Numbered from the stretch's first letter, positions 4,187 to 47,265 are shown. The stretch is 55,243 nt of DNA from Candidatus Muiribacterium halophilum (GCA_002869225.1 PKTG01000087.1:1-55243), one strand, 5' to 3'. Made by a program: numbers and translations. The notes: generated from the letters alone by a model not told the origin.

Positions 4187-5320
4187 CTATTTTTCAATAG
4201 TCTCAACATTAGCTCTTGGAAGAAGTAATTTCTCTCCACTACCAAGCTGCACTTCAACAACTCTAACCTTAGTCTCACTATCAACAACCGTGAGCTCTAC
4301 AGGTAGATCTGTAACTTCTACTATTTCTCCAAAATGATTTCCTCTAATAACTCTAAGAGAATCTCCTTTATTCATTCCACCAGCTTCTGATGATTCATTT
4401 ATCTTTACAGAATTAAGGTCATCAGGAACATTAAGCGTTATTATTATCTCTGGTCTCATAACACCAGCTCTTATCTGAGTAGCTCCGTTGATAGATGCTT
4501 TTTTTCCTTCATTTTCCTTTAGCAATTCAAAAGTCTTCTGTGCCATATTTATCTGACCGAATCCCTCTGTAACAACTACAGTCAATCCAATCTCTTCATG
4601 ACCTGTTATTGCAACACCAATATCATACCCAAGTACTTCTTTTAGATCCTGAGCATCTATCCCACCACAGATTATACCTTTGACACCACATTTAACCGCT
4701 TTGTCAATAGCTTCTTTTTTTACAAGTGAACCACCGACGATTATCTTCCCTTTTAAAGAATCGTCGATCTTATTTTCATCAAGTACAGCTGAAATATCAT
4801 CTGCTACAAATTTAAGTTCACCTTCAGTCTCTCCACCTATTCCAAATATACCCTGAATAAATGCAGCTTCACTTCCAAGTATTACACCTTCTTCAGGCAT
4901 TATCTCATCAATGACTCCATCTATATAAGCTTTCATCTCAACAGGAATTGGCGCTTGTCTTATTATTACCTGTCCTGTAACTTCAGATATACTTTCAATA
5001 GTTCCACTTACAGGTGCGTTAACAGCAGATTTAAAATATCCGAAAAAGCCTTTTGTCTGGGCCATCATCTCGCCTTTTTCTACCTTATCACCTTCTTTTT
5101 TGAACATTACTTCATCGAGTTCTTCAGGTGTTATAGAAAGTGTATTTACTATATTCATAGGTGTAACATTACCTGGTAGTTCAGTTCTTGCTACAACTGT
5201 ATCTGAAGTTACTTTGTCACCTTTTTTTACAGTTATATTACCCTTTAATGGTAATCGTCTTTCCTTTTTAACGAGTGTCCTAGGAGCTACTTTTAGTCCC
5301 GGTGTATATGCATGTGCCAT
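4187..5320 (-). CDS. Barrel-sandwich / KOW-like protein paired with GlmL-family ATPase
   Basis: Function unknown. The 377-residue protein looks soluble, with no signal peptide or membrane span. Its N-terminal part resembles the barrel-sandwich (lipoyl/RnfC-like) fold: LPLKGNITVKKGDKV, then KKEGDKVEKGEMMAQTKG and VNAPVSGTIESISEVTGQV. The middle holds a glycine-rich alpha/beta segment, GKIIVGGSLVKKEAIDKAV. The C-terminal part (about 310-375) looks like a KOW/SH3 barrel, SLRVIRGNHFGEIVEV. It starts 18 bases after the GlmL-like gene, with AGGAG before the ATG, so the two are probably made together. The stop is TAG. Domain calls are by eye and need a profile search. Confidence 0.6.
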   Translation of the reverse strand: MAHAYTPGLKVAPRTLVKKERRLPLKGNITVKKGDKVTSDTVVARTELPGNVTPMNIVNTLSITPEELDEVMFKKEGDKVEKGEMMAQTKGFFGYFKSAVNAPVSGTIESISEVTGQVIIRQAPIPVEMKAYIDGVIDEIMPEEGVILGSEAAFIQGIFGIGGETEGELKFVADDISAVLDENKIDDSLKGKIIVGGSLVKKEAIDKAVKCGVKGIICGGIDAQDLKEVLGYDIGVAITGHEEIGLTVVVTEGFGQINMAQKTFELLKENEGKKASINGATQIRAGVMRPEIIITLNVPDDLNSVKINESSEAGGMNKGDSLRVIRGNHFGEIVEVTDLPVELTVVDSETKVRVVEVQLGSGEKLLLPRANVETIEK

Positions 5321-5338
5321 AAAAAATTCTCCTTTTTC

Positions 5339-7180
5339 TTATTTTTCATATCCTGGATAAAGATTCATCTCTGTATACCATTTTTTAAGGAAGCTGATTC
5401 TTTCCTCTTCTGTTTCCGGTACTGAGAACGGTCGTCTTCCCCTTGCATCAAATATAAGTCCTACAGTTCCACCTGTGACTTCTTTTTCTACACTGTTACC
5501 TGCTCCATCTCCCATATCAAAGCCTTTAGCAGGATTCACTTTGACTTTTGCTTTCTCACCAACAGCTAGAGGGACAACTTTCATATCTCCAAAACGTACC
5601 TCTCCTTCGGCAGTCTTTCCATCAGAATAAGTCACAGTATAATCCATACATTTCTTTTCATATTTTGTTGTACCTACAGGAGCAATACAAGTTCCCAAAT
5701 ATATAAGACAATCTTTTTCAAAGACCTGTGTCGCAGCTTCAGGATGAACCTCCGCCAAAACACCAAGCTGTGGCATCATAAATATTGAGTCAACTGTCAA
5801 GGTGGTAAAACCTTCAGGAAGAAAAGCATCAATAAGCATCATAGCTGACTGATTTCTTCTTGGAGCATGTGAAAGAACTCCACCAGAACCTATTAACATA
5901 TCAAGATTAAGCATATTCACAAGACTTGTATGAAGATCTTCCTGTGAAAACACATCTGATACTGTCCTTTGTTTCTGTACACCTTTTAGTCCAACAGCTA
6001 GAGCTTTATGTTGCTCAAACGATCTTCTTAAAGCTTCTCTTGCAACAGCCTGTTCAAACATGAGTTCTTCTAGAAGATGAGGTATTGTAGTAGGTCTGAT
6101 CATCTTGTTCTTTACTTTATTTCTAAGTTCAGCTTCGTTCATACCAAACGGTATCCAACGTAGTACATTTTCAAGTCCTGCTTCTGATACTACATTAGAT
6201 ATTGAATAGGACATACCAAGATTTGCTGAGACTGTTCTATTAAATACAGTCTTTCCTTCTTCATCAGGATTATCAAATACTGAGAAGACGTCTGTTGTAG
6301 CTCCGCCAATATCAACACCAACCACTTCTATTTTATTAATATCTGCAATCGTTTCCATTATCTGTCCAACCGCACCAGGAGTTGGCATAATATCTACATC
6401 AGTCATAGCCATAAGCTTTTTATAACCTGGAGCCTGTGCCATAACATGCTCAAGAAACTGAGCCTGTATTTTAAGTCTTGATGGCATAAGATCTTCTTTT
6501 TCAAGTGTTGGTCTTAGGTTTTCAGTGATATCAAGAGCAACCTTCTTTTCAAGTATCTTTTTGATCTCTGGAATCGCATCCTGATTTCCTGCAAATATAA
6601 CTGGAAGATTGTATGAACTTCCTAGTCTTGGCCTCGGGTCTGCTGCACCAATTATTTCACCAAGTTCTACGACGTGTTTTATAGTACCGCCGTTGACTCC
6701 ACCAGAAAGAAGTATCATATCAGGTCTAAGATTTCTGATTCTCTGAATTTTCTGATAAGGTTTTCTCCCATCGTTGTTGGCTATAGTATCCATTACAATA
6801 GCTCCAGCTCCAAGAGCTGCTCTTGCAGCGGATTCTGCAGTCATAGATTTTACAACACCTGCGACCATCATCTGAAGACCACCACCAGCTGATGATGTTG
6901 AAATATAAAGATCTATTCCTTTTTCTTCTGAATAATCTTTAATAAACTCTTCATTATCTAGTATCTTTATTCCTCTAAGTTCTTCAAGTTCTGTAACTGC
7001 GTTGATAACACCTTTTGTAACATCTTCAACAGGAGCTTCAACTGTTGTTGGTGCTTCTCCTCGAGTTACGAGTCTGTATTCATCGTTCTGTTTTTCGATA
7101 AGAATTGCCTTTGTGGTAGTAGAACCACAGTCAGTAGCAACGATCCTTCGGATCTTTGACTTGTCAATATTGTTCCCCAT
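5339..7180 (-). CDS. GlmL (MutL)-family ASKHA ATPase
   Basis: Belongs to the glutamate mutase L family, relatives of hydantoinase/acetate kinase-fold ATPases sometimes found with coenzyme B12 mutases. Nucleotide-binding motifs are visible: ATDCGSTTTKAILIE near residue 15 (phosphate 1) and VVGVDIGGATTDVFSVF near 290 (phosphate 2), plus STSSAGGGLQMMVAG. Length is 613, longer than I would expect for mutase-operon GlmL; the extra C-terminal part is beta-rich (VGEKAKVKVNPAKGFDMGD). No glutamate mutase S or E subunit lies in the window. Neighbours are membrane proteins upstream and the barrel-sandwich protein downstream, so its partner is likely not a mutase here. Confidence 0.8.
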   Translation of the reverse strand: MGNNIDKSKIRRIVATDCGSTTTKAILIEKQNDEYRLVTRGEAPTTVEAPVEDVTKGVINAVTELEELRGIKILDNEEFIKDYSEEKGIDLYISTSSAGGGLQMMVAGVVKSMTAESAARAALGAGAIVMDTIANNDGRKPYQKIQRIRNLRPDMILLSGGVNGGTIKHVVELGEIIGAADPRPRLGSSYNLPVIFAGNQDAIPEIKKILEKKVALDITENLRPTLEKEDLMPSRLKIQAQFLEHVMAQAPGYKKLMAMTDVDIMPTPGAVGQIMETIADINKIEVVGVDIGGATTDVFSVFDNPDEEGKTVFNRTVSANLGMSYSISNVVSEAGLENVLRWIPFGMNEAELRNKVKNKMIRPTTIPHLLEELMFEQAVAREALRRSFEQHKALAVGLKGVQKQRTVSDVFSQEDLHTSLVNMLNLDMLIGSGGVLSHAPRRNQSAMMLIDAFLPEGFTTLTVDSIFMMPQLGVLAEVHPEAATQVFEKDCLIYLGTCIAPVGTTKYEKKCMDYTVTYSDGKTAEGEVRFGDMKVVPLAVGEKAKVKVNPAKGFDMGDGAGNSVEKEVTGGTVGLIFDARGRRPFSVPETEEERISFLKKWYTEMNLYPGYEK

Positions 7181-7440
7181 CGTTTACACTCCTTTTTTCT
7201 ATTTATTTATCATTAAAATCTATTAAAATCGTGGGATTTGGTGTTTGGGTTGGTTTTGATCTTCCCAAAATCCAAAACTCCACATTCCCAACTCCTCACT
7301 CCCAACTTAAAAAGCCGACTTCTCGACTATACGACACTTCGACTTTACGAAGAATCGACCCATCGTTCTTTTTCGTGCTTCTTCGTGATTTTTCCCTTTT
7401 CGCTTCACGCTTCACGCTTCACGCTTTACGCTTTACGTGT
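7181..7440. repeat. Intergenic repeat region inside the GlmL gene run
   Basis: Gap of 260 bases between the 107-residue protein and the GlmL-like gene. It contains a diverged G-rich tract (GGTGTTTGGGTTGG, 7240-7253) followed by TTTTGATCTTCCCAAAATCC. An inverted copy of this block is found near 14150-14200. Then come CGACTTCTCGACTATACGAC and tandem CTTCACG/CTTTACG heptamers (7397-7437). No gene or clear promoter seen. Confidence 0.7.
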
Positions 7441-7764
7441 TCACTGTTTTTCGTCTTTCGAAGCATCCTTTTTCTTCTTAGCTTTTCGGCTTCGTTCTCT
7501 TTCTCTTTTCTCTATTTCTCTAAGGATATACTCAACTCCTTCTCTTTTTTCCAGTATCTCCTGAATCACATCATAACTCTCAAAAGAATATATGAGGTTT
7601 ACAACAGGCTGGAAAGCAAGCATTATCTGACTTCCAACAAAAGACATGGGTTTATATGCTTCAAGAAAGAATATTGCAGCAGCTGACATATCATATTTGA
7701 TGATCTTGTCTACAAGACGACTGACTACTTCCTTTTCCTTTTCAGTCAGTACTGATGAGGTCAT
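7441..7764 (-). CDS. Uncharacterised 107-residue protein of the GlmL/DUF6754 run
   Basis: I do not recognise this protein. It has a mixed helical N-terminal part (TEKEKEVVSRLVDKIIKYD), a moderately hydrophobic centre and a strongly charged, lysine/arginine-rich tail ending in KAKKKKDASKDEKQ. The start is placed at ATG 7764 because GGGAG lies six bases upstream; a longer reading from 7806 has no ribosome site. It overlaps the upstream gene by 23 bases, implying coupled translation, and is the last gene before the repeat region that precedes the GlmL-like gene. Confidence 0.7.
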   Translation of the reverse strand: MTSSVLTEKEKEVVSRLVDKIIKYDMSAAAIFFLEAYKPMSFVGSQIMLAFQPVVNLIYSFESYDVIQEILEKREGVEYILREIEKRERERSRKAKKKKDASKDEKQ

Positions 7765-8155
7765 TAAGTACTCCCATGATGTTTTTTTTATTTTCGTTGA
7801 GGACAAATAGTTTTAATCCTCGAAAATCGTTTATTCTACTTTCATCATACATTGTACTTAAAAACAGACCGTTTTTCCACTCAGAGACCTTAAAAAATCT
7901 TGTAAGATCATGCGTCTTTTTAAAAAAAAGATTCTTTACCGTTATCTCACGCTTTTTAATATCTATAGAATAAAATACTGGAAAAAAAAACTCTCTTAAA
8001 TAAACGACAACAAAAAAAGAGATCAATAACAAAACCGGAATATTAACCCAATAATAAGAAAAAATAAAACAAAGTATCAGCACCGCAATAGCGAGTGCTG
8101 ATACTTTTTTATGTGTATCAATAAAACTATATTTCCAGCTAATAACTTCTTTCAT
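7742..8155 (-). CDS. Small membrane protein with a PH-like tail
   Basis: Unknown 137-residue protein. Two adjacent hydrophobic segments (about 20-36 and 39-58) follow a short N-terminal stretch. The rest looks like a beta-rich cytoplasmic domain: FYSIDIKKREITVKNLFF, then DLTRFFKVSEWKNGLF. This layout resembles bacterial PH-domain membrane proteins, an impression only. The ATG comes directly after the TAA of the upstream membrane gene. Belongs to the same run as the GlmL and DUF6754-like genes. Confidence 0.7.
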   Translation of the reverse strand: MKEVISWKYSFIDTHKKVSALAIAVLILCFIFSYYWVNIPVLLLISFFVVVYLREFFFPVFYSIDIKKREITVKNLFFKKTHDLTRFFKVSEWKNGLFLSTMYDESRINDFRGLKLFVLNENKKNIMGVLNDLISTD

Positions 8156-8803
8156 TTATAGCGATATTCCAAGGAAATCCTCTAAGAGGAACTGAACTCT
8201 TGAAATAAGAAGTGATATTCTAGCCATCACTGTAAATCCAAATGCTGCACCAAAACTTATCATCAGGAACCAAATTCCGATTCTTGCTGTCTTTCCAATA
8301 GCACCTTTATGTTCTGCTGAAAAGAAGAAATAAAGTAGCGATGTAAGTACGGCAACAACATAGAGAATGTTAAATAGAGAAGTCCATATATCTCCACTTA
8401 TCCACATTGGATTTTTGAAAATAATTGCATGAACCTGAGATATAACGTCAGATTTAATAACGTTTGTAATACCCATACCTGAACCTACACCAACCATGAA
8501 AGAAAGAGGGTATCTAGCAACCCAGTTGTTCTTCCTGGAAAGTTTGAAAAGAAGCATAATACCGCCAATAAGAGGTATTATAAGAATAAGATTCATAGGT
8601 TCACTTCCAGCATCTTTAAGCTTATCAAAAAGCATTGGTTTAAAAACGTTCTGATAGGTAACAACAAATCCATATCCAGCGGATGTTCCAACAAATATAT
8701 GTTCTGCCATCTTGTAGATAGGATTATCTTTATACAAAAATGAATATATAGCAAGCGTAAGTAAAGTTGCCAGCCAAATTCCTATATCGGTAGTAATATT
8801 AAT
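8156..8803 (-). CDS. Polytopic membrane protein with an apparent ATT start
   Basis: Unknown integral membrane protein of about 215 residues with roughly six hydrophobic segments. No ATG, GTG or TTG stands at the expected place. An in-frame TAG (8806-8804) is followed at once by ATT (8803-8801), six bases after GGGAGG. Starting there adds a membrane segment, IGIWLATLLTLAIYSFLY, which makes structural sense. The next usable codon is TTG at 8737, without a ribosome site, and would cut that segment off. ATT is a rare but real start codon (infC); a single G-to-T change from ATG would also explain it. It lies 13 bases after the preceding membrane gene. Confidence 0.75.
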   Translation of the reverse strand: MNITTDIGIWLATLLTLAIYSFLYKDNPIYKMAEHIFVGTSAGYGFVVTYQNVFKPMLFDKLKDAGSEPMNLILIIPLIGGIMLLFKLSRKNNWVARYPLSFMVGVGSGMGITNVIKSDVISQVHAIIFKNPMWISGDIWTSLFNILYVVAVLTSLLYFFFSAEHKGAIGKTARIGIWFLMISFGAAFGFTVMARISLLISRVQFLLEDFLGISL

Positions 8804-8816
8804 CTAAATCCTCCCT

Positions 8817-9848
8817 TTATGATTTTTTCTTCTCGAGTAGGAAAATTATATTACCTACAACGATGAATAAGATTATTACAAGGTGAGCAAATGACTGAGG
8901 AGACATACCTTCAGTCGCCTTACCCTGATCATAACCGGTAGCAGTCTCAAATTCAGCAGCACCAGCTAGTCCTGCAAGCATACCTGAAAGCTGCCCTGAG
9001 TTTAGATAAGGAAGAAATTCAGTTGCTGAAACAGCAGTTACGCCACAAGCAACAGGAACGTTCTTTTTACCGTTTGCATATACGACCCATTCTTTTGCAC
9101 CAGGAGTTCCTGATGAAAGTGAGAAAATAAGGTCTATATCGTTTATTGTCTTGAGCCCTTTGACTATTTCCATATCTTTGATCGGTTCACCACTGATGTC
9201 GGTCTCAAGAGCACCGACAACATCTTCAAGCATCTGTGTTATAACAACAACCTGTCCGGCTTTATAACCTGTATTAAGATAATCTATGCCAGGTTTCACT
9301 TCTCTGTCTATCGCATTTATAACACCTTTTACATAATAACTATCTTCAGGTGAAAAAGCTAAACATTCCTCTCCATCTTTTCCTTCTTCTCTTTCGTCTA
9401 CATAAACGAATTTTCCATCTCTTTCTTCAATAGTCATCTCACATGAAGCGGTATCTTTGGAGATAACAAAGACTTTTTTACCTTCAGCTATAAGAGCTTT
9501 AGCTCTATCTGGTGATATCTTCACTTTATCATTGTAAAGAGCGTTCTCTACAAGGTTTGCACCAAGAGGCCAAAGTCCAAGTACTATGACTTTAATATTA
9601 TTTTCAAAACAATATTTTAAAATAGCTAAAGTCATAGGCTGAATTTCTGCCTGAGAACCCGCATCATAATCAGCTGATATAATAACAGTTGAACCAGGTT
9701 CAAGATTGTTAAAAGCTTCATATACCTGATCTGTCATAGGTGAAGTAGGAACTGGAAACTCAACTCCCACAAGCATAGGTATAATAACAGAAAGTGCTAT
9801 ACAAAGATAAATCACACGTCTATCTATTTTTTTCAAAAATTCCAACAT
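8817..9848 (-). CDS. Membrane-anchored protein with large soluble domain, GlmL/DUF6754 run
   Basis: Unknown function. The 343-residue protein has one hydrophobic segment near the N-terminus (about 12-31) and one at the C-terminus (about 315-338, LVIILFIVVGNIIFLL), so a domain of about 280 residues sits on one side of the membrane. That domain starts with an alpha/beta pattern, GSTVIISADYDAGSQAEI and NIKVIVLGLWPLGANLV, and ends with NSGQLSGMLAGLAGAAEFE. The architecture, soluble domain between terminal anchors, resembles the DUF6754-like protein encoded two genes upstream. GGAGGTG precedes the ATG, and the upstream gene ends in TAATG, overlapping by one base. Confidence 0.75.
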   Translation of the reverse strand: MLEFLKKIDRRVIYLCIALSVIIPMLVGVEFPVPTSPMTDQVYEAFNNLEPGSTVIISADYDAGSQAEIQPMTLAILKYCFENNIKVIVLGLWPLGANLVENALYNDKVKISPDRAKALIAEGKKVFVISKDTASCEMTIEERDGKFVYVDEREEGKDGEECLAFSPEDSYYVKGVINAIDREVKPGIDYLNTGYKAGQVVVITQMLEDVVGALETDISGEPIKDMEIVKGLKTINDIDLIFSLSSGTPGAKEWVVYANGKKNVPVACGVTAVSATEFLPYLNSGQLSGMLAGLAGAAEFETATGYDQGKATEGMSPQSFAHLVIILFIVVGNIIFLLEKKKS

Positions 9849-10474
9849 TATTCTTCACCTCCAAGATATGTTCTTTCAATTCCAAGCATGATCTTGAGAG
9901 ATACGGATATTGCACCAAGTGCTGCTCCGATCATAATTGCGGACTGTGCTGCTGCTGCCGGATAAGCCATGATCCAGTTTGATATCACAGGTATCTTACC
10001 CCAGATCATTGTTCCGATTGGAACTCTACCAAGCATAACTATAAAAGCAGCTACAAGAAGGAAACTCGCTTCTTTTGTCTTTGCTCTGAAAGCTCTGAAC
10101 GCTGCTGATGCAACATAAAAAGCAAGCAAAGAAAACATAGTTGATGACAACGGTCTGTAAATATTATTAAACATGAACTGGAATGTTCCATCAGGATTTT
10201 CAGAATCAAAAAATATTCCTGATATAACAATAGCAAAAAAAGCTACTATAAGTGCAATACTATAAACTGCATTCATTCCATTTCTTCTTACCTTAATAAA
10301 ATGTGAGATAAGAAGATTAAAAAGTCCTAGAAACAGTGCAAATGCGCCAATTATTCTTATCCATTCAAAAACCCCATTCTCAAACTTCTGTACATGAGCA
10401 GGATTGATGAAATATATGATAATCATAACGAGTGCTGATAAAAACGTTATAATAAGCGGTATTGTTCTTTTCAT
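9848..10474 (-). CDS. Six-span membrane protein, GlmL/DUF6754 run
   Basis: Unknown integral membrane protein of 208 residues. About six hydrophobic segments are visible, starting with IPLIITFLSALVMIIIYF and ending with AIMIGAALGAISVSLKIML. The loop after the third segment is polar (FFDSENPDGTFQF). An AGAGGTG site precedes the ATG. It lies 19 bases after the DUF6754-like gene and overlaps the next gene by one base, so all are probably made from one transcript. I know of no transporter family it fits. Confidence 0.75.
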   Translation of the reverse strand: MKRTIPLIITFLSALVMIIIYFINPAHVQKFENGVFEWIRIIGAFALFLGLFNLLISHFIKVRRNGMNAVYSIALIVAFFAIVISGIFFDSENPDGTFQFMFNNIYRPLSSTMFSLLAFYVASAAFRAFRAKTKEASFLLVAAFIVMLGRVPIGTMIWGKIPVISNWIMAYPAAAAQSAIMIGAALGAISVSLKIMLGIERTYLGGEE

Positions 10475-10493
10475 TTATTCACCTCTTTATTTT

Positions 10494-11381
10494 TTATCCT
10501 TTCATCGCGAAAAATTTATCGAGCCAATTAAGCATATTGCTTAAGCTTTCCATACCGGTTGCATTTCTGACAACATTAAGAAGAGCAAAAACGATTATTA
10601 CTATCATGACTGCAAGTTTTCCCATATCCTGTCCTTTAAGCGAACCTTTTGATTTAGGGTCTGTCGAAAGATAAGCACCCGCTGCATAAAGTTCTTCACC
10701 AATAAGTGTGTAATCACATGATGCAATAAAGAACGGAAGCTGTGATGGATTTGCTGTACCAGCTATCTGAATAGAACCCACTGAGTTTCCAGTCTCAGCA
10801 AGAATAAGTGATTCAGCCCAGAAACTACCTAGATAGAAGTTAGCTGCTGGATTTTCTCTAACCATATAACCATCAACACCTGCAACATAACCAAACTGAT
10901 CACTTGTTAAAAATTCGACCATATTTTCTCTAAAAGCATCCGGTCTACCAGCTCCAAGATATGATTCTCTAACAACTTCTGTTGCAGTTGAGTAAACCAT
11001 TGGATCTCTTAGAGGAACATAAAGATCAGTCTCATAAGAAGCTGTCTTTTTTGCAATATGTCCAAGTATAGATATAGAAGCTAATGTCTGAAGCTCACTA
11101 ATTCCACCAATTCCAGGAACATAAAGAACCGGTTTACCCATTTCAGTAGCTCTTCCAAGAGCATCATCAATAGCGTTAAGTCCAGCAATCCTTCTAATAA
11201 AGATATGCTGTCCCGATTTTGCTTTCTGAATATAATAGATAATAACGAAAGCAAAAAGAATAAGTCCTATAAGTACTGGAAATCTAGATGTTTCCAGTAA
11301 TTTAGTACTTTTTTCAGCTTCTGCAAAAGCAGAAACACCGAGCAATAAGATCATTGCTACAATTGAAAAAATCTTTTTCAT
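10494..11381 (-). CDS. DUF6754-like membrane protein, first gene of the run
   Basis: The 295-residue protein has a Sec-type signal (MKKIFSIVAMILLLGVSAFA), a membrane segment (about 32-50, VLIGLILFAFVIIYYI), a soluble domain with GKPVLYVPGIGGISELQTLA and AGTANPSQLPFF, and a second membrane segment near the C-terminus (LAVMIVIIVFALLNVV). It resembles the DUF6754 family as I recall it, which has no known function. The start is the ATG at 11381, five bases after AAGGGG; the GTG two codons earlier would touch the ribosome site. It heads the membrane gene run. Confidence 0.7.
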   Translation of the reverse strand: MKKIFSIVAMILLLGVSAFAEAEKSTKLLETSRFPVLIGLILFAFVIIYYIQKAKSGQHIFIRRIAGLNAIDDALGRATEMGKPVLYVPGIGGISELQTLASISILGHIAKKTASYETDLYVPLRDPMVYSTATEVVRESYLGAGRPDAFRENMVEFLTSDQFGYVAGVDGYMVRENPAANFYLGSFWAESLILAETGNSVGSIQIAGTANPSQLPFFIASCDYTLIGEELYAAGAYLSTDPKSKGSLKGQDMGKLAVMIVIIVFALLNVVRNATGMESLSNMLNWLDKFFAMKG

Positions 11382-11498: not shown

Positions 11499-12236
11499 TC
11501 AAGAAACAACTATATTCACCAGTTTACCTTTCACAAAAATAACTTTTCTTATTGTCTTCCCTTCTGAATATTTTTTTGTTTTATCCGATGAAAGCGCCAT
11601 TTCTTTGACTTTATCTTCAATTTCATCGGGCGCTATATTTATCCTATCTCTGATCTTTCCATTTATCATAATAGGTATCTCTATAGAATCTTCTACACAG
11701 TATTCTTTTTTATACTCAGGCCATTTAGCATCGAAAACACTTTTTCCCAGTCCAAGGTTTGAATAAAGTTCTTCTCCAATATGCGGACAGAACGGAGCAA
11801 GCATCTTGATAGTATCTCTAAGGGACTCACTGATGACAAATTCAGCTTCACCATCAGATCCGTTTTTCTCTATTTCTGTAAGGTATGGATTAAACATATT
11901 GAAAAACTCCATAAAAGAAGATACCGCTGTATTAAACTGATGTCTTTCTCCAACATCATCAGTTGCTTTTTTTATAGTCTGATGAAGTTTTCTATATACA
12001 TCTTTGGCATTTGAGGACATGTCTTCAAATGCAACAACAGATGCATCTTTTTTATAAAATTTTAATGCTCGCTCGAATATAAGGTATACTCTTCTTAAGA
12101 ATTTAAAACAACCAGCAACAGCATCATCTGACCATTCGATATCCTTTTCAGGAGGTGCTGCAAAAAGAATAAACAATCTTGTTGTATCTGCTCCATATTT
12201 TTCAATCATATCAAGAGGGTTTACAACATTTCCTTT
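11499..12236 (-). pseudogene. leuS: Leucyl-tRNA synthetase, C-terminal part after an in-frame stop
   Basis: Continues leuS in the same frame after the TAA at 12239-12237. It reads KGNVVNPLDMIEKYGADTTR, completing KMSKSKGN, then the anticodon-binding domain and the C-terminal tail (IPIMINGKIRDRINI). Joined to the N-terminal part it gives about 835 codons, a normal LeuRS length. An ATG at 12209 could restart translation but has no ribosome site and would not restore the KMSKS loop. LeuRS is essential, so this is either a sequence error or a dead copy with another gene elsewhere. The final stop is TGA. Confidence 0.9.
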
Positions 12237-14006
12237 TTATTTACTCATCTTTGCACCATTAAGATTTACCATTCCCTGAGCTATAAGCTGTTTGAAAGGT
12301 TCATCATCTTTAACGATGTTCAGGTCTTTAAGTACTTTTGCAAAGAATCTCGAATAAAGAAGGTGAAGAATCGCATGTTCTATACCACCGATATACTTAT
12401 CTACTGGATGCCAGTAAGCAACTTTTTCCTTATCTATTGCTTTTTCAGGATCCTGACCTGTAGGATATCTGAAATAATACCATGAGGAACAGATAAATGT
12501 ATCCATTGTATCGGTCTCTCTTTTAGCTTTTGCTCCACACTCAGGACAAGTAGTATTTACAAAATCATCACAAGTTCCAAGAGGAGATTTCCCTTTAGCT
12601 GAAAGATCGACTTTATCCACTGTAGGGAGCATCACAGGAAGATTCTCATCTTTTTCAGGTACCACCCCGCATTTTTCACAGTAAACAACTGGGATAGGAG
12701 CTCCCCAGTATCTTTGTCTTGATATAAGCCAGTCTCTTAATCTGAAATTCTCAGTCTCTCCACCAAAATCTTCTTTATGAGCTTTAGCTGCAATTTTTTT
12801 AATACCTTCATCAGAAGTCATATTTGTAAACTCTCCTGAGTTTACCATCACGCCTTTTTCAACAAAAGCCTGTTGCATATTCTCAGGTGTAGTTTCATCT
12901 GAATCTTTATCCTTTATAACAACCTTTATAGGAAGATCATATTTTTTTGCAAATTCAAAATCTCTCTGATCATGAGCCGGAACAGCCATTACAGCCCCCG
13001 TACCATATTCATATATCACATAGTTTCCAATAAGAATTGGCACTTCTTCGCCTGTAAGAGGATTTATGCAGGTAGCATTTAAAGGGATACCTTTTTTTTC
13101 CATCTCATCTGACATCCTCATAAACTCAGCTGTCTTCAAGGTATCGTTTACAAATTCTTTTATCTCACCTCTATTAGGAGCATCTTTTGACAATTTTTCT
13201 ACAAGAGGATGTTCAGGAGCAAGAACAAGATATGTTACACCAAAAGCTGTATCCGCTCTTGTTGTAAAAACTCTTATCTTCTCCCCGGAATCTTTTACTG
13301 TAAAATCAAGTTCAACACCAGTTGATTTACCAATCCAGTTTGCCTGCATTGTCTTTACTCTATCAGGCCACCCTGGAAGATTATCAAGGTCTTCAAGAAG
13401 TCTATCGGAATAATTTGTTATCCTAAAAAACCATTGTTCGAGATCTTTTTTCTCTACTTCGCTATCACAATATTCACATTGACCGTTTTTAACCTGTTCA
13501 TTAGCGAGAACAGTCTCACAAGTATTACACCAATTCACCTTTGAAGCCTTTTTATAAGCAAGATCATTTTTTAAAAACTGAATAAAAAGCCACTGTGTCC
13601 ATTTATAGTAATCCGGAAGACATGTAGTTACCTCTCTTTTCCAATCGTATACAAGTCCGAGTTTTGCAAACTGTTCTTTCATCTGATCTATATTTGCAAG
13701 AGTCCATTTGTCAGGAGCAACACCTCTTTTCTTAGAAGCATTTTCAGCAGGAAGACCAAAAGCATCCCAACCCATTGGAGACAATACATTTTTTCCCTGC
13801 ATCCAATAGTATCTTGCTAGCAGATCTCCGATAGAATAAACTCTTGTATGACCCATATGAAGTCCATCACCCGAAGGATACGGAAACTGTGTGAGTATAT
13901 ACATCTTTTCTTTATCTTTGTCCTCGGTGACCTTTAACAGATCGGATTCTTTCCATACATCCTGCCATTTCTTCTCAAGACTTTTAAACTCATACTCTTT
14001 ATTCAT
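12237..14006 (-). pseudogene. leuS: Leucyl-tRNA synthetase, N-terminal part, ends at a stop within KMSKS
   Basis: Class I synthetase that charges tRNA-Leu. The 589 residues contain [21 protein letters not shown] with the HMGH (HIGH) signature, zinc-type cysteine pairs ([23 protein letters not shown]), the editing domain (about 220-400, with [15 protein letters not shown]), and [16 protein letters not shown]. Translation ends at NLNGAKMSK followed by TAA where the KMSKS serine belongs. A TCA-to-TAA change (C to A) is the only single-base path from Ser to TAA. GAGGAG precedes the ATG. All other LeuRS features look intact. Confidence 0.93.
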
Positions 14007-22431: not shown

Positions 22432-24930
22432 TTATTTTTTCTTGTCTGGTTTTCCAAGCGGAATCAGATCATCAAGATCATCATCTTCATCTTCAGCAGT
22501 CATCTTATATTCAATGACTCTGTTCATTACGTCACCAAATACATGTCTGTCAAGACTATATTCATTAAGAAGCTGTGGATTATCTTTAACCATATCAAAC
22601 AGAGCTTCTTCTCCATTATTTCTCTTTGTTATAAGCCTTCTTAAAGCATTTTCATCTGTAGCATTTGCCATTCTTTCTTCAAATATGACCATATTCTGAA
22701 GTCTACCTCTTAGAGTTGGATAAACAAGATCCATTACAGCTTCCATAACTGATTTTCTAGCTTCTCTGCTATCTATAGCTTCAAATCCAAATGAGAAGTA
22801 TACTACTTTATAGTTATCTTCCTGAGCAAAAATACCAGCATGCCCTGCACCACTAATTGATTTGCTACCAAAACCTGTATCTTTGGATTCTTTGAAAAGC
22901 ATCTTGATACCACTATATTTAAAAATAACCTGAGCATTTCCTATAGCTTCGATCTCATCCGGCCATTTCTGATTGTTCGCACCATCTCCACCTTCTATAG
23001 CAAATTCCATATTAAATCCATTTTCTCCAACAACGTTATGTATTCCAACATTGTCCTGTATGTATTTTGCATGAAGATACTGAGAATAGAAATCATCATC
23101 TTTCAGTTTATAACAAATATCCTGACCACTTATAAACAGATTTCCACCTGCATCAAGATAACTCTGAAGATCTTCAAGTCCAACTACATTAAGGTCTGAG
23201 GTTCCAGGAGCAGGTACAATAACAACTCCGTTAACATATTTAGCGAGTAAAGAATAAGGTATCTGTCCTTCTTCGATCTTATTATCCCAAAGGTCGAATT
23301 TAATACCACAATCGTTAAGTGCTGTCATATACTCTTTATATTCATTCTTTTCACTATCAAGAGCAAGAAGAAGAACATTGTTTCTTACAGCAAAAGGTTT
23401 TCTTACAATAAGAGTCTCAGTCTTTGAAAGATTGATTCCTTCTCCTTCAACAGAAATAACAAAATCTATTGACTTATTTTCATCACATGAAGATGATATA
23501 GTAGCTGAAAGACCATCCACTGTAGTTTCAGATAAAGCATCTACACCAAATACTGAAGCATACGATGAATTAACCGAAGCATCCCAACCATCAACAGCAA
23601 GTTTAACCTGAAGACTTGATGAAGGTTTATTTCCTTCGTTCTTGATCTTGACTTCAAAATCAACTCTTTCACCTGGTGATACTTTACCATCACCATCTGA
23701 ATCTTTATAAGTAATAGTATCGAGTTTGATAACAGGATAGTTTGGATAGAAAAGTCCTGAAAGGAACTCATCCCATTTAGAATCCTGTGCCCATTTTATA
23801 GCAGCGTAATCATCTTTTTTACCATCAAACTGATATTTTGAAGGAATATATATTGAAACACCATGAGAGTTTTCTACTTTAGAACCAGTATTAACATATT
23901 CAATCACAAATTCAGGAAGACTATCAAGAACATCCTGAGCTGCTGACTTAACAGAATAATCGTTTACTTCTTTAATAAGATTTTCACAGAAATGTCCAAG
24001 GTCCTTACACTGTGAATAAGCGTATTTCTGAGTCTGGTTAATAGCAGTCTGATAAGCACCTGTATAAGAAGGAGCTTTTTCTATAAGAGTTTCTGCAAGT
24101 GTATCTACTTTATTTCTAAACCATTCTATTTTTCTGAGATCTATAGCTGACTGTGTTGTAGCTGAAGTTCCCTGAGAACCACCCATATAGGAATCTCCAT
24201 AAGCCTTAACCATTGTCTTAGATAATTCAACTGGATTCATAGTTGGATTTGCAACAAGTGGAGCAAGAAAATCATCATAAGGCCAGCCATCTCCCGGTTC
24301 AGTCTCTTCTGCACCAACCTGAATATCACAATACTGTCTAGTCTCATATCCAACTTCCATCATCTGCATAAGACAAGCATCGTATGATATTATATCAATC
24401 TTTCTTCCAGCGTGTTCATAAAGGGCTTTTGTAAGCATTGAAAGCTGAGGAGTTGTAATATGATTACCACTCTGATCATCGTAACAAATACCTTTTGTAA
24501 GTACGTTTTCGTTAGGATCTTTTTCCCAACCTGCACCATTGTTCCAGAAAGCTATAAGATATTTCTGTGCAGGATAATTATCAACACCCCATTTGAAGAA
24601 ATCAAGTGCATGCTGCCAATCACCTGTATCCTGTTCACCAAGGTCCTGAACAACAGGAGAGGTGATTGAACTACTATTATCATCTTTTTCTATATAATAT
24701 CTCCATGTACCGTTACTACCCGCTGAGTCAAATTCAACAATGATGTTCACATCATCCGTTGAACCTATTTTCTCCATCTCATTGATATCTTCTTTTCCAG
24801 CACTGGAAAGATTGTTATCACCGTTGATGAAAAGAAGTAAAGTCCATTCTTTTTCACTAGTGACATCCGCTTTAACACTAACAAAAGTGAAAGCGATCAT
24901 TAGTACGATTAACCAAGTCAGTTTTCTCAT
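22432..24930 (-). CDS. Secreted clostripain-like (C11) protein with a lost catalytic His
   Basis: 832 residues with a Sec signal (RKLTWLIVLMIAFTFVSVKA). The N-terminal half (about 25-360) is the peptidase C11 fold: WTLLLFINGDNNLSSAG, then ISYDACLMQMMEVGYE with the catalytic Cys, and GAEETEPGDGWPYDDFL. The motif that should read W-N-H-G is FWNNGAGW, so residue 131 is Asn (AAT) instead of the catalytic His (CAT). After it come a calcium-loop-like DSDGDGKVSPGERVDFEV (CARDB-like), then an alpha/beta domain with YLDAGGNLFISGQD. The ATG at 24930 is five bases after GGAGG. Either a pseudo-peptidase or a sequence error. Confidence 0.85.
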   Translation of the reverse strand: MRKLTWLIVLMIAFTFVSVKADVTSEKEWTLLLFINGDNNLSSAGKEDINEMEKIGSTDDVNIIVEFDSAGSNGTWRYYIEKDDNSSSITSPVVQDLGEQDTGDWQHALDFFKWGVDNYPAQKYLIAFWNNGAGWEKDPNENVLTKGICYDDQSGNHITTPQLSMLTKALYEHAGRKIDIISYDACLMQMMEVGYETRQYCDIQVGAEETEPGDGWPYDDFLAPLVANPTMNPVELSKTMVKAYGDSYMGGSQGTSATTQSAIDLRKIEWFRNKVDTLAETLIEKAPSYTGAYQTAINQTQKYAYSQCKDLGHFCENLIKEVNDYSVKSAAQDVLDSLPEFVIEYVNTGSKVENSHGVSIYIPSKYQFDGKKDDYAAIKWAQDSKWDEFLSGLFYPNYPVIKLDTITYKDSDGDGKVSPGERVDFEVKIKNEGNKPSSSLQVKLAVDGWDASVNSSYASVFGVDALSETTVDGLSATISSSCDENKSIDFVISVEGEGINLSKTETLIVRKPFAVRNNVLLLALDSEKNEYKEYMTALNDCGIKFDLWDNKIEEGQIPYSLLAKYVNGVVIVPAPGTSDLNVVGLEDLQSYLDAGGNLFISGQDICYKLKDDDFYSQYLHAKYIQDNVGIHNVVGENGFNMEFAIEGGDGANNQKWPDEIEAIGNAQVIFKYSGIKMLFKESKDTGFGSKSISGAGHAGIFAQEDNYKVVYFSFGFEAIDSREARKSVMEAVMDLVYPTLRGRLQNMVIFEERMANATDENALRRLITKRNNGEEALFDMVKDNPQLLNEYSLDRHVFGDVMNRVIEYKMTAEDEDDDLDDLIPLGKPDKKK

Positions 24931-24959
24931 AGTATCCTCCATAATTGTGTTAACACATC

Positions 24960-33732: not shown

Positions 33733-34308
33733 TCAGAAATTGTCACATAACACTTCAAAATGAGCCTGCGGATGTAGACATGCAGGACATGTTTCTACAG
33801 CTTCTGCTCCTTCATGAACATAACCACAGTTTCTACATTTCCACTGTATTTTTTCATCTTTTTTGAATACTTTTCCATTTTTTACATTTTCAAGAAGTTT
33901 TCTATATCTTTCTTCATGATGCTTTTCAACTTCAGCTATCTTTCTAAAACAAACCGCGACTTTTGGGAAACCTTCCTCATCTGCTATCTTTGCAAATTCC
34001 GGATAAAGTTCAGTCCATTCTTCGTTCTCGCCATCAGCTGAAGCCTGAAGGTTTTCAATAGTAGTCCCTATCTTACCAGCTGGATAAGTAGCTGTTATTT
34101 CTGCAGGTCCACCTTCTAAAAATTTAAAGAATCTTTTTGCATGTTCTTTTTCATTATCCGCAGTTTCTGTAAAGATTCCTTCTATCTGTCTGTATCCTTC
34201 TTTTCTAGCTACTGAAGCAAAATAATTATATCTCATTCTTGCCTGAGATTCTCCAGCAAAAGCTTTAAGAAGATTTTTTTCTGTTTTTGTACCTTTAATA
34301 CTACTCAT
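33733..34308 (-). CDS. rbr: Rubrerythrin
   Basis: Peroxide-reducing non-haem diiron protein, 191 residues. The ferritin-like domain (about 1-140) holds the Glu/His ligands ([37 protein letters not shown]), and the C-terminal rubredoxin domain has [10 protein letters not shown] and [11 protein letters not shown]. Reduces hydrogen peroxide with electrons from rubredoxin, which is encoded just upstream. Last gene of the operon, in front of the terminator. Confidence 0.96.
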
Positions 34309-34329
34309 TAAATTCCTCCTATATTTTTA

Positions 34330-34488
34330 TTACATTGCTTCAAACATTGTTTTATCTACACCACAAATAGGACATACCCAAGTATCAGGGATATCTTCAA
34401 ATTTAGTTCCTGGAGCAACACCTGAATCCGGGTCGCCTTTTTCAGGATCATAAACATATCCACAAGCAGTACAAACGTATTTTTCCAT
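34330..34488 (-). CDS. Rubredoxin
   Basis: Small electron carrier of 52 residues with a single iron in two CxxC pairs: [15 protein letters not shown] and [14 protein letters not shown], the classic rubredoxin layout. It starts at ATG 34488 after GGAGG. It lies between the flavodiiron protein and rubrerythrin and is the likely electron donor of both. Confidence 0.95.
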
Positions 34489-34508
34489 TTCTCCTCCTGT
34501 TTCTTTAT

Positions 34509-35705
34509 TTATTTTATAGATTTAGCTATTTTTATTCCAAATTCCTGACATTGTTTCATACATTCCGGCCCCGGAACATATTTTTGTCTTAGTGGTTCTA
34601 CTGCTTTTTCATAACCCGCTTCTTCAAGATAACCTGTCATCTGTTTGCAGGCCTCACCACTCCATCCAAAAGATCCAAATACACCGTATTTGATGTTCTT
34701 AAACCTAAGACCTTTTAAATAGGTAAGACAATCAGCCACTTTTGGAAGCAGATGATTATTAAGAGTAGAAGAACCAAAGATCACCGCACCAGCATTTAAT
34801 ACTTCTGTTGCAACATCACTTCGATCGTTTGAGGAAAGAGGCATGACCTTGACACTGACACCCTCGGAGATGAATCCATCCTCAATTGCTTTGGCCATCT
34901 TTTCAGTTGAACCCCACATAGTATCGTATATTATTACAGCACGATTTTCCGGTTTCTGACTACTCCATTTCTTATATAGATCAATAACAAGTTCTTTTTT
35001 TGTTCTGAACGCAGGTCCGTGATCGTTAAGAAGTATATCTATATCAAGTCCAAGATCCGGAAGTCCTTCTATAAGTTTTGCCACCTGAACTGAAAACGGT
35101 GTAAGGATATTAGCATAATATTTTTCAGCTTCCTGAACAATAATAGCCTCATCAAGCTGATCATCAAATCTTTCAGATGTAGCAAGATGAAGACCAAAAC
35201 CATCCTGACAAAAAAGCGCTTTTTCCTTATCCGCATAGGTAAACATACTATCAGGCCAGTGAAGCATCCTTGTCTCAATAAACTTCAGTTCATTTTCACC
35301 AATATTGATTGAATCCCCTGTCTTTACAGGAGTTATCTCAATACCAATATCACCATAATGATCGCAAAGAGCTTTCTGTCCCATTGTAGATGCAAAAAAC
35401 TTCTCAGGTTTGCATTTTTCAACAAAAAACTCAAGGCTTCCTGAGTGATCCGGTTCAGCATGATTTGAAATTATATAATCCACCTCTGAAGGGTCTATAA
35501 GTTCAGAAAGACGGGCAAGCATCTCTTCTCTAAACGGTGCTTTAACTGAATCTATTATGACTTTCTTTTCATCAAGTATCAGATATGCATTATATGTTGT
35601 ACCTCTACTGGTACGATAACCATGAAAGTTTCTGATTCCCCAATCAATTGCTCCGATCCACCAGATCTTTTCTGTCATCTGCACCGGTTTAAGAAACTGC
35701 TTCAT
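34509..35705 (-). CDS. Flavodiiron protein (rubredoxin:oxygen oxidoreductase, FprA type)
   Basis: Reduces oxygen to water (or NO to nitrous oxide) without making radicals. 398 residues. The N-terminal beta-lactamase fold has the diiron ligands [28 protein letters not shown] and NDHGPAF. The C-terminal flavodoxin domain has [18 protein letters not shown] and [17 protein letters not shown] precedes the ATG. It receives electrons from the adjacent rubredoxin in the usual scheme. Confidence 0.95.
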
Positions 35706-35714
35706 CTTTCCTCC

Positions 35715-36194
35715 TTAATAATTCTTCCATGCATCGGAAAGTACGGCTATATGTTTCATCTCTTCTGAGATTATATCTGCAACCTTATCTTTTCCAAGCT
35801 TTTCAGGTACTATTTCCTTTATTCCAAGATAAAAAAGTACACTTTCCTTTTCTTTTTCAATTGCGTATCTAAAAATATCATCAATAGTGTTTATTTCATT
35901 CAGATCTCTTTCAGCATTTTTCAGATTAAAAACAACTGTATCAGCCATTTCTTTAAGATAAGTAAACATCTGATTATCAGAATCGAAGTTCATATTTGTC
36001 CACTCTTCATCAGAAAAATAACTTTTAAAATCTTCAAATACCATCTTATGAACATCTTCCATATTTGCAAGATCTTCAAAAAGTGTTTTAGCTTTTGATT
36101 CTGTAGTCTTTTCAGCAGCCATTCTGTAAAAAGCTGATCCATTATCCTCTATCTTCTTTGCCATCTCAATTATTTCATAAGCATTGTATTTCAT
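35715..36194 (-). CDS. Ferritin-like (rubrerythrin-related) diiron protein
   Basis: 159-residue helical protein of the YhjR/rubrerythrin-like ferritin group. EIIEMAKKIEDNGSAFYRMA and FEDLANMEDVHKMVFEDF provide Glu-x-x-His-type ligands, and FRYAIEKEKESVLFYLG and ISEEMKHIAVLSDAW the second half. No rubredoxin domain. A role in peroxide or iron handling fits the neighbours. GAGGTGG before the ATG. Confidence 0.85.
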   Translation of the reverse strand: MKYNAYEIIEMAKKIEDNGSAFYRMAAEKTTESKAKTLFEDLANMEDVHKMVFEDFKSYFSDEEWTNMNFDSDNQMFTYLKEMADTVVFNLKNAERDLNEINTIDDIFRYAIEKEKESVLFYLGIKEIVPEKLGKDKVADIISEEMKHIAVLSDAWKNY

Positions 36195-36211
36195 TTTCCA
36201 CCTCTTGTGTT

Positions 36212-36724
36212 TTATTGTTTGTCAGCTGGAGGAGTAAAGATTCTTTTCCCCATTTCCTGATCTAACATAAATAATGCACTTTTATCATTTCCTATAAGTT
36301 TTAGTTTATCATTGATATCACCTACATTTGTCTCTTCCTCTACCTGCTCGGAAATAAACCATTGAAGAAAATTATCTGTAGCATGATCTTTTTCTTTCCT
36401 TGCTATATCGACTAGTCTATTTATCTTAGACGTAATAAGTCTTTCATGATCAAGCGCAGCTTTAAAAGCATCAAGCGGAGACTTCCATTTAAAAGCAGGT
36501 TTTTCAATAGCATCAAGTAATACTCTTCCGCCTCTTTCCGATACATGGTCAAATATTTTCATGCCATGCGCTATCTCTTCCTGAGTCTGAGCTTTCATCC
36601 ATGCTGAAAATCCAGGTAGTCCTATTGAGTCAAAATAAGTCACCATCGATAGATAAAGATAGGATGAATAAAACTCAGCGTTGATCTGTTTGTTGAGTTC
36701 TTTTTCCATCTTCTTTGTTAACAT
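36212..36724 (-). CDS. ftnA: Ferritin
   Basis: Iron-storage cage subunit of 170 residues. The ferroxidase ligands are visible in INAEFYSSYLYLSMVTYF, QTQEEIAHGMKIFDHV and FISEQVEEETNVGDI. GAGGAG lies six bases before the ATG. It takes ferrous iron out of circulation, limiting Fenton chemistry, in line with the operon. Confidence 0.93.
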   Translation of the reverse strand: MLTKKMEKELNKQINAEFYSSYLYLSMVTYFDSIGLPGFSAWMKAQTQEEIAHGMKIFDHVSERGGRVLLDAIEKPAFKWKSPLDAFKAALDHERLITSKINRLVDIARKEKDHATDNFLQWFISEQVEEETNVGDINDKLKLIGNDKSALFMLDQEMGKRIFTPPADKQ

Positions 36725-36727
36725 ATA

Positions 36728-37108
36728 TTACTCCTCTCTCTTCCAAAGACCATGCACATTACAAAATTCTCTTGCTACGACTTTGTTCACATCAGCCTTA
36801 AATTTAAAACCAGGTTTATCACCAGGATTCAAAAATTTCCTATATGATTTTCCGTCAGCGATTATCTGAACCCATTCTATAAAATGTTTTTCTTCCATTG
36901 GATGTTCTGTTGATCCAACAAAGACTTCAACCATTCCATCTTCTTTCTTTACGACAGGGACATGTTTTTCAGTTGTCTGATCTGCAGTCTTTTCTTCCAT
37001 ATTTGTCATTGGTTTTCCACAACAGACTAACTCACCCTGTCCACCATGTAGCACCTCGATAATGTTTCCACACATCTCACATTTGTAAACTTCAAATCTT
37101 TTTGCCAT
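36728..37108 (-). CDS. dfx: Desulfoferrodoxin (superoxide reductase)
   Basis: Reduces superoxide to peroxide. 126 residues: an N-terminal rubredoxin-like centre ([22 protein letters not shown]) and a C-terminal superoxide-reductase domain with [18 protein letters not shown] and CNVHGLW, giving the Fe(His)4Cys site. ATG at 37108 is chosen over 37189 because AAGGGGG precedes it and the protein starts there in the family. Confidence 0.94.
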
Positions 37109-37118
37109 GTTTCCCCCT

Positions 37119-37820
37119 TTATATTTTGTTAAATTTATCTTTTCCAACACCGCATACAGGACATACCCAATCTCCTGGAATATCTTCAAATGCAGTCCCA
37201 GGTGCTATTCCTGAATCAGGATCACCTTTTTCCGGATCGTATACATATCCACATACATCACAAATATACTTATCCATTTTACCATCATTTGCTAATTTTT
37301 CATCCTCTTTTTCTGACTCTTCAATAAAAGTAGCTGCTTTTTTCGGTGTTTTTCCACCTTTAACAGCATGATAATAGGCATAAGTCATTGGAGTTTCATT
37401 ATTAAAAGTCACAGCATCTACAAGTTCACCTATAAAAAGAGTATGAGTGTGAACATCAACCATATCTATTATCTTAGCCTCAAGATAACCACATGTATTT
37501 TCCGTAAGATATGGAATATTGTTTTCTGTTGTCTTATACTGAGCTGTTGCAAATTTATCAATATCATTTCCACATTTAAACCCAAAATTTCCTATAAAAG
37601 GCATAGGAGTATTTTCTGCCAGTATAGATATTGTAAAATATCCATCTTTTTTCATATATGAATGTGTATGGTTTTCTTTGTTTATGCTAACAGCTATTGT
37701 TGGTATTGCAGAAGAAATCTGAAAGACGGTATTAACAATACAACCATTCATCCTTTCACCTTTCTTTCCGCTAACTATATAAAGTCCATATGATAATTTA
37801 TGCAAAGTATTCAAGTTCAT
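37119..37820 (-). CDS. Flavin reductase-rubredoxin fusion (high-molecular-weight rubredoxin type)
   Basis: 233 residues. The N-terminal FMN-binding flavin reductase domain (about 1-165) has [20 protein letters not shown], and the C-terminal rubredoxin (about 182-233) has [16 protein letters not shown] and WVCPVCGVG. In Moorella-type systems the protein passes NAD(P)H electrons to flavodiiron protein. ATG at 37820 follows GAAAGGAG and overlaps the PerR-like stop codon (ATGA), so it is translationally coupled to the regulator. Confidence 0.92.
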
Positions 37821-38239
37821 ATTCGCTCCTTTCTGCACGCTGGACAGATTCCTCTAAAATATATATGCGTTTCCATCACAATCGAATCTTTAAGATCAAA
37901 TTTAAATTTATCCTTGACCGGAATATCTAGTACTTTTTGACAATCCAAACATTTAAAATGACCATGAGTAGAAACATCACCATCAAATCTCATCTCATTT
38001 GATTCTATAACAACAGATTGAATAATATTATGTTTTTCAAAAAGTCTTAAAGTATTATAGACAGTTGTTCTTGAAAGTGTAGGAATCTCAGGATGAAGCT
38101 TCTGATAAATATCATCAGCAGTAGGATGACTTTTTGTTTCCCAAAGATATTCGAGTATTCTCTTCCTTTGATACGAAGGTCTGATATCCTTTGCTCTTAA
38201 TTCTTTTTCAGCATTTCTTGTCATTCTTCCGTTCTTCAA
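37817..38239 (-). CDS. perR: PerR/Fur-family repressor
   Basis: 140-residue Fur-type regulator at the head of the oxygen-defence operon. Winged helix with [19 protein letters not shown] and [19 protein letters not shown]; metal sites [18 protein letters not shown] (His and Cys) and CPACRKER. The two C-x-x-C pairs suggest a structural zinc. The operon content makes a peroxide-sensing PerR more likely than an iron-sensing Fur. A start six codons later (ATG) is possible. A palindrome overlaps its own promoter, consistent with autorepression. Confidence 0.88.
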
Positions 38240-42696: not shown

Positions 42697-42710
42697 CTGT
42701 TTACTCCGCC

Positions 42711-43175
42711 TTATTTATATTTTTCGATTATTCCCTTGACCATTGAAGGATCAAGGTTTCCATGTACATCCTCGTTGATCATGACCGCAGGAGCGACTGC
42801 ACAAACACCAAGACAAGCTGTAGTCTCAAGAGTGAAAGTACCACAAGGGGTTGTCTCTCCTACTTCAATTCCAAGCTCACTTTTAAAAGCTTCAAGGACG
42901 TCTTTAGCACCTACTACATGACAAGGTCCTGATTCGCACATCCTTATAACATATTTTCCTCTTTTTTCAGTTGAAAACATACTGTAGAAAGATGTAACAC
43001 CATATAATTTATTTAGGGGTACACCTGTCTTTTCTGCGATCTTTTTCATACAATCTTCGCAGATAAAGTTCTCGCCACTTGCATCCTGAACCATATGCAG
43101 AATATGCATAAGGTTTCCTTTTTCAGGAGAGTATTTGTTTAAAATACTTTCCACATCAACATTACAACAAGCCAT
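42711..43175 (-). CDS. hydC: NuoE-like hydrogenase subunit, set 1
   Basis: [2Fe-2S] thioredoxin-like subunit, 154 residues. Cluster ligands are visible: CESGPCHVVGAKD and CLGVCAVAPAVMINED; helical N-terminus with GNLMHILHMVQDASG. Passes electrons between the NADH subunit and HydA. Between hydA-2 (upstream) and hydB-1, each gap under 20 bases. Confidence 0.94.
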   Translation of the reverse strand: MACCNVDVESILNKYSPEKGNLMHILHMVQDASGENFICEDCMKKIAEKTGVPLNKLYGVTSFYSMFSTEKRGKYVIRMCESGPCHVVGAKDVLEAFKSELGIEVGETTPCGTFTLETTACLGVCAVAPAVMINEDVHGNLDPSMVKGIIEKYK

Positions 43176-43193
43176 CTGACTTTCCTCCGTGTT

Positions 43194-44945: not shown

Positions 44946-44958
44946 CCGGGCCTCCTGA

Positions 44959-46743: not shown

Positions 46744-46752
46744 ATTTCCCCC

Positions 46753-47238: not shown

Positions 47239-47265
47239 AATTCACCTCTCAATCAAAGACACTTA

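Follow-up and report, generated by a model that had tools for sequence, protein, structure and literature searches.

Conserved linkage of a MutL-family ATPase pair to a DUF6754 membrane core suggests an eight-gene membrane system, possibly a transporter

GlmL/MutL of glutamate mutase and Or-4 of ornithine degradation (PF13941, NF040745 and NF040744) belong to the ASKHA fold family and have a role in mutase operons. PilM and GspL, which have an actin-like ATPase fold, work together with single-pass and multi-pass membrane proteins in the type IV pilus and type II secretion platforms. Here we describe a run of eight genes, g8 to g1, in a stretch of 55,243 nucleotides from Candidatus Muiribacterium halophilum (GCA_002869225.1 PKTG01000087.1:1-55243, hereafter the window), in which a MutL-family ATPase (g2) and a soluble barrel-sandwich protein (g1) stand with a set of membrane proteins headed by a DUF6754 protein (g8). 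Given that this set recurs across phyla, the grouping is more than chance and, judged from sequence, the eight genes are one conserved system, made up of a membrane core (g8, g7, g6 and g5), an obligate cytosolic pair (g2 and g1) and accessory g3 and g4. None of the papers in the library searched mentions DUF6754, PF20539, PF13941 or TIGR01319, and the eight-gene set appears never to have been described before.

The original prediction placed eight co-directional genes here, and a check of the window confirmed all eight reading frames, all on the minus strand between 4187 and 11381 and transcribed in the following order.

10494..11381, minus strand: g8, DUF6754 protein of 295 residues with a signal/span, a second span, a predicted inward Rossmann-like domain and a C-terminal span (PF20539, model, spans and charges)
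9848..10474, minus strand: g7, multi-span membrane protein with 5-6 spans, without a Pfam family (alignment of relatives)
8817..9848, minus strand: g6, anchored at both ends, with an alpha/beta domain predicted to be extracytoplasmic, without a Pfam family (alignment, model, charges)
8156..8803, minus strand: g5, multi-span membrane protein of 215 residues with a probable ATT start at 8803, without a Pfam family (alignment of relatives)
7742..8155, minus strand: g4, two-span protein with a C-terminal beta-rich domain that by eye resembles a bacterial PH domain (frame, spans)
7441..7764, minus strand: g3, protein of 107 residues with the conserved motif PAILFLExHKPLxFxxSQ, overlapping the end of g4 (alignment of relatives)
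7181..7440, no strand: intergenic gap of 260 bases with short tandem repeats, local and not conserved (repeat finding, comparison of relatives)
5339..7180, minus strand: g2, system-type MutL, an ASKHA ATPase of 613 residues (PF13941, motifs, tree)
4187..5320, minus strand: g1, soluble protein of 377 residues without a span, with an RnfC_N-like barrel-sandwich hybrid and a KOW-like C-terminus (PF13375, alignment, hydropathy)

The core was found far beyond this genome. A scan of named genomes for g8 alone gave 46 loci in Armatimonadota, Zixiibacteriota, Poribacteria, Latescibacterota, Planctomycetota, Edwardsiibacteriota, Macinerneyibacteriota, Bacillota (Fermentithermobacillia and Symbiobacteriaceae), Myxococcota and one bin labelled Ignavibacteriota; the genome set for these other phyla stems from a single pattern-based scan, and its breadth of at least ten phyla is a lower bound. 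With neighbours detected by profiles built from the window proteins, g7 followed g8 in 74 of the 80 cases where enough sequence was available, and 61 of 70 such loci held all four core genes in the order g8-g7-g6-g5, across at least ten phyla. The exceptions were mainly tandem g8-g8 pairs, cores in which g6 or g5 was not detected, and a small number of DUF6754 genes standing alone. The accessory g3 gave 38 matches in the first locus survey, with g4 adjoining it in 18 loci. Of 37 genomes from the window's phylum, 27 carried DUF6754, as did 103 of the 121 Armatimonadota sampled but none of 14 well-known control genomes. On a quick tree of g8, the phylum labels need 10 changes, where the minimum possible is 9 and the shuffled mean 20.3, which points to mostly vertical inheritance; the system is chromosomal.

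The ATPase pair is tied to this core by position and by co-occurrence. Throughout the window's phylum, a long MutL of about 600 residues lies some 4 kilobases downstream of DUF6754, with g1 adjoining, in nearly every genome that holds both. The first survey of other phyla showed the core without a nearby MutL in most loci, which alone would weaken the linkage; a search of whole genomes then recovered g1 and a MutL-family gene in all 34 other-phyla genomes chosen only for their DUF6754 core, with a long MutL in nearly all of them and a fragment at a contig edge in the others. In 24 of the 34, g1 and MutL share a strand and lie within about 3 kilobases of each other. Direct junctions of pair and core were also found, in the orders g4-g3-x-g2-g1-g8-g7-g6-g5-g8-g7-g6-g5-g8-g7 (L144, Zixibacteria), g3-g2-g1-g8-g7-g6-g5 (L153, Edwardsbacteria-type) and g3-g2-g1-g8-g7 (L150, a Planctomycetota bin), and g1 stands directly upstream of g8 in at least 13 of the 121 Armatimonadota genomes. 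Presence agrees likewise: DUF6754 and g1 are both present in 26 and both absent in 9 genomes of the window's phylum, with one discordant genome each way (agreement 35/37, Fisher p 8e-7), and in Armatimonadota 102 genomes have both, 1 DUF6754 only, 7 g1 only and 11 neither (p 3e-10), where both p-values ignore relatedness and incomplete bins and are indicative. In the discordant genome with DUF6754 only (G033) the contig ends at g3, and that with g1 only (G030) is 84% complete. The core may be multiplied beside a single pair, since three or more copies stand in tandem in L044 (Macinerneyibacteriota) and L144, and about 19 of the 121 Armatimonadota have 2-3 DUF6754 genes and a single g1 (split g1 matches being fragments). 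The earlier proposal that the ATPase and its soluble partner belong with the membrane complex is thus supported by recurrence and co-occurrence across phyla; that the membrane genes rarely sit with this MutL elsewhere was not found, as they adjoin or co-occur with it across phyla.

The same proposal called g2 a GlmL-type ASKHA ATPase, of which the family assignment stands and the name does not. The protein matches MutL (PF13941) with an E-value of 3.2e-128, which places it in the broad ASKHA family, but it reaches only 229.8 bits against the NCBIfam GlmL model, whose cut-off is 475, and 174.9 against TIGR01319, whose cut-off is 204. On a tree of 54 MutL proteins, all short GlmL/Or-4 forms fall into a single clade (support 100/100) that contains none of the system forms. 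Scores and tree together indicate that the system MutL is a sister family of GlmL and not GlmL itself, and many 'GlmL' annotations may be wrong. The phosphate motifs TDCGSTTTK and DIGGATTD occur in almost every intact system MutL, and among 28 aligned members the motif aspartates D17 and D290 are near-invariant; the only near-invariant cysteines are C18 and C491, and an iron-sulfur cluster is therefore not suggested. A relation to BcrAD_BadFG, the activator of 2-hydroxyacyl-CoA dehydratase and benzoyl-CoA reductase, is not supported, as g2 scores 18.7 bits against a threshold of 31.5 and only these two cysteines are near-invariant, where a 4Fe-4S cluster would be expected of such activators. 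Mutase subunits are absent from the window cluster, and over 44 genomes Met_asp_mut_E exceeded its cut-off in 1 and Lys-AminoMut_A in 7, neither doing so in 30 of the 34 other-phyla genomes. In its own genome, a separate short MutL (G000:C142, L118) follows OraS/OraE and ornithine thiolase genes identified by eye, the ornithine aminomutase at this locus being confirmed by profile search; the names of ornithine, V-ATPase and ATP-binding cassette (ABC) neighbours given here come partly from N-termini read by eye, with profile support where available. That mutase subunits always lie elsewhere in the genome was not found, most genomes lacking mutases.

We infer that g1 and g2 form one unit, because they are usually adjacent across genomes and are fused in one. 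The predicted barrel-sandwich/KOW-like nature of g1 was upheld for the barrel-sandwich, by a match to RnfC_N (PF13375) at E 7.4e-7, above the curated cut-off, while the KOW part at the C-terminus is weak (2 of 8 relatives, best 0.011). The fusion (L155, 8300-11410, Macinerneyibacteriota) joins a helix-turn-helix, MutL and g1 in 1036 residues near genes resembling Trk potassium uptake, and the MutL tree makes it a divergent paralogue and not a system member. At L183 (203-2788), another divergent MutL frame is likewise long, at 861 residues. In Fermentithermobacillia, with up to six MutL matches per genome, additional divergent pairs of MutL and g1 adjoin genes for FtsX-type permeases and ABC ATPases (L165, L170), and a MutL stands alone at a contig edge (L174); given the pairs beside FtsX and ABC genes, the pair is a module also joined to other membrane systems.

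With respect to the membrane subunits, the anchored DUF6754-like protein had been recognized correctly, g8 matching PF20539 over its full length (profile 3-253 of 257, E 2.8e-114). By hydropathy and charge, it starts with a signal-like span; a second span, with positive charge behind it, leads into a soluble domain, and another span closes the protein. This arrangement should place the soluble domain, in which R, E, Q, CDY, E, Y, D and K are near-invariant, on the cytoplasmic side. In relatives the stretch between the first two spans is longer, with total lengths of up to about 640 residues, and this variable stretch should lie outside. In g6, a span stands at either end and the outer flanks of both, being positively charged, should be cytoplasmic, so that the domain between them should lie outside the cytoplasm. 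Predicted models of g8 and g6 are confident (predicted local distance difference test, pLDDT, 90.6 each), and a fold search with them found no significant match among solved structures; weak Rossmann-type matches of g8 to MurQ, GmhA and a molybdenum-cofactor carrier (best E 0.002, template-modelling score about 0.3), like the search with g6, which gave nothing convincing, were not used as evidence of function. As a separate observation, four genomes of a single family have solitary DUF6754 genes immediately behind a MoeA-like gene (L113-L116), which may be set beside the molybdenum-cofactor carrier among these weak matches. Profile comparison showed no homology between g6 and g8, which share a similar order of secondary elements, or between g5 and g7. 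No convincing sequence relative with a known structure was found for the six subunits tested (g1, g2 and g5-g8), nor relatives of known function for g3-g8, and a Pfam search gave no curated match for g3-g6 and only sub-threshold matches for g7.

The two proteins predicted to have six spans, g7 and g5, are indeed multi-span, six being approximate: hydropathy counts five for g7 and three for g5 in its short form, and most relatives have 5-6 and 3-5, respectively. That short form, the frame with an ATG, GTG or TTG start (8156-8737), misses the first span of the relatives, which no such codon restores. The frame stays open to an ATT at 8801-8803 on the minus strand, directly behind GGGAGG, and from there gives 215 residues that match the relatives including the first span. 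The ATT is thus the probable start of g5, which would reduce the gap to g6 to 13 bases. As for the gap of 260 bases before MutL, it does contain repeats (7276-7437; a 7-base unit in 5.3 copies and a 14-base unit in 2.3), but g3 and g2 overlap in relatives such as L088, and the gap is therefore local to the window.

Here we speculate that the g1/g2 unit would dock on the inward domain of g8, that ATP binding and hydrolysis by g2 would switch this unit, and that the change would be relayed through g7 and g5 to the outward domain of g6, with one ATPase pair serving several core copies, as one energising module serves several membrane modules in energy-coupling factor (ECF) transporters. An ATPase-driven membrane complex is supported by the near-invariant motifs of g2 and by the charge-based prediction of a g8 domain inside and a g6 domain outside. 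We tentatively favour, at somewhat less than even chances, that the four-subunit core and the g2/g1 pair bring about an ATP-driven or ATP-gated movement of substrate across the membrane, most likely as a transporter. The main reason for preferring transport over sensing is the pattern of several cores per single ATPase pair, which is that of a shared energiser. It is possible, though doubtful, that the system represents a new class of primary-active membrane machine built on a MutL-family ASKHA (actin/Hsp70-fold) ATPase, in which one shared ATPase/adaptor pair serves several four-subunit cores, and which is widespread outside model organisms. Several points weigh against transport: sequence and fold searches found no known transporter fold and no solved relative, domains on both faces would suit a receptor just as well, the helix-turn-helix fusion hints at regulation, and ASKHA proteins near GlmL are generally taken as reactivases, not pumps. 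Of the 'transporter, assembly or energy-coupling device' originally envisaged, membership of one conserved system is therefore supported, while the function stays a proposal.

Assembly or reset and sensing are serious rivals to transport. In the former, MutL-g1 would be an ATP-driven chaperone or activase that matures or resets membrane complexes, with the DUF6754 core as main client and ABC permeases or the V-ATPase as further clients. The role of the MutL family in mutase operons counts for such an assembly or repair device, as do the paralogous pairs beside FtsX/ABC genes and the DUF6754 cores in or beside V-ATPase operons (Edwardsbacteria-type genomes, G007). However, V-ATPase subunit C, found in only 5 of 37 relatives, is no general partner, and the core matches the ATPase in conservation, which a mere list of clients would not; we consider this explanation unlikely, but to be taken in earnest. 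A similarly uncertain and rather unlikely explanation is an envelope-sensing complex, in which g6 and the variable outer part of g8 would sense, g7 and g5 transmit, and the inward g8 domain set the ATP state of MutL-g1, which would act on other targets. Predicted domains on both membrane faces and the variability of the outer g8 extension are consistent with sensing, as are the DNA-binding helix-turn-helix of the one fusion and a weak 7TMR-DISM signal in g7 (E 0.0045). However, the fusion is a paralogue outside the system, 7TMR-DISM is matched by only 1 of 28 g7 relatives, and no kinase, cyclase or regulator recurs as a neighbour in the surveyed loci.

An accessory part of a V/A-type ATPase is very unlikely: the core sits between the subunit genes of V-ATPase operons in Edwardsbacteria-type genomes (L038 and L040-L043) and follows one in G007 (L108), but the presence of DUF6754 (27/37) does not track that of subunit C. 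Least credible is an ordinary GlmL that services a B12-dependent aminomutase and lies beside unrelated membrane genes by chance, since the Pfam MutL match and the aminomutases of the same genome are outweighed by the GlmL score, the tree split, the separate short MutL with OraS/OraE, the 30 of 34 genomes with neither mutase family and the conserved linkage to the core. Electron transport through the likeness to RnfC was rejected because the barrel-sandwich domain alone matches. Anti-phage defence found no support, as no PADLOC model matched any of the eight proteins, and neither did a mobile element, as no record of a plasmid or phage contained DUF6754 at E 1e-5.

The cluster is flanked by leuS upstream and a riboflavin operon downstream, neither of which recurs as a partner in the loci inspected. 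The only leuS of the genome has a TAA at 12237-12239 on the minus strand within its KMSKS signature (KMSK*KGN), leaving frames at 12237-14006 and 11499-12209, which is either a strain variant or an assembly error. Elsewhere in the window we noted, by eye, a large exported protein resembling a clostripain-family peptidase (22432-24942, minus strand), an oxygen-defence type run of rubrerythrin, flavodiiron protein, ferritin, desulfoferrodoxin, rubredoxin-flavoprotein and a Fur-like regulator (33733-38239, minus strand), NuoE/F/G-like and [FeFe]-hydrogenase-like subunits in two consecutive sets (39383-47628, minus strand) and a further hydrogenase-like frame (49206-50555).

Given its presence in at least ten phyla and membrane subunits for which no structural relative was found, the system probably serves a basic function of the cell that is missing from model organisms or carried out there by other means and, if the ASKHA ATPase energises it, would represent a new way of coupling ATP to a membrane complex. 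When compared with known systems, g1 shares the N-terminal barrel-sandwich domain of RnfC and NqrA, but has no other Pfam domain, and the cluster has no Rnf or Nqr genes. The PilM/GspL platforms likewise combine an ATPase-fold protein with single-pass and multi-pass membrane proteins; however, Pfam shows no sequence relation, and the eight genes include no pilin, secretin or assembly ATPase. The likeness to ECF-type transporters, an ATPase pair common to several membrane modules, is one of architecture only, as Pfam finds no ABC or other P-loop family among the eight genes and the ATPase here is of the ASKHA type. The closest kin, GlmL and Or-4, have the fold family and the nucleotide motifs in common with g2, whereas the g2 type is long (about 600 residues), carries an extra C-terminal domain and the TDCGSTTTK motif, forms its own clade, and is always accompanied by g1 and linked not to a mutase but to a membrane core.

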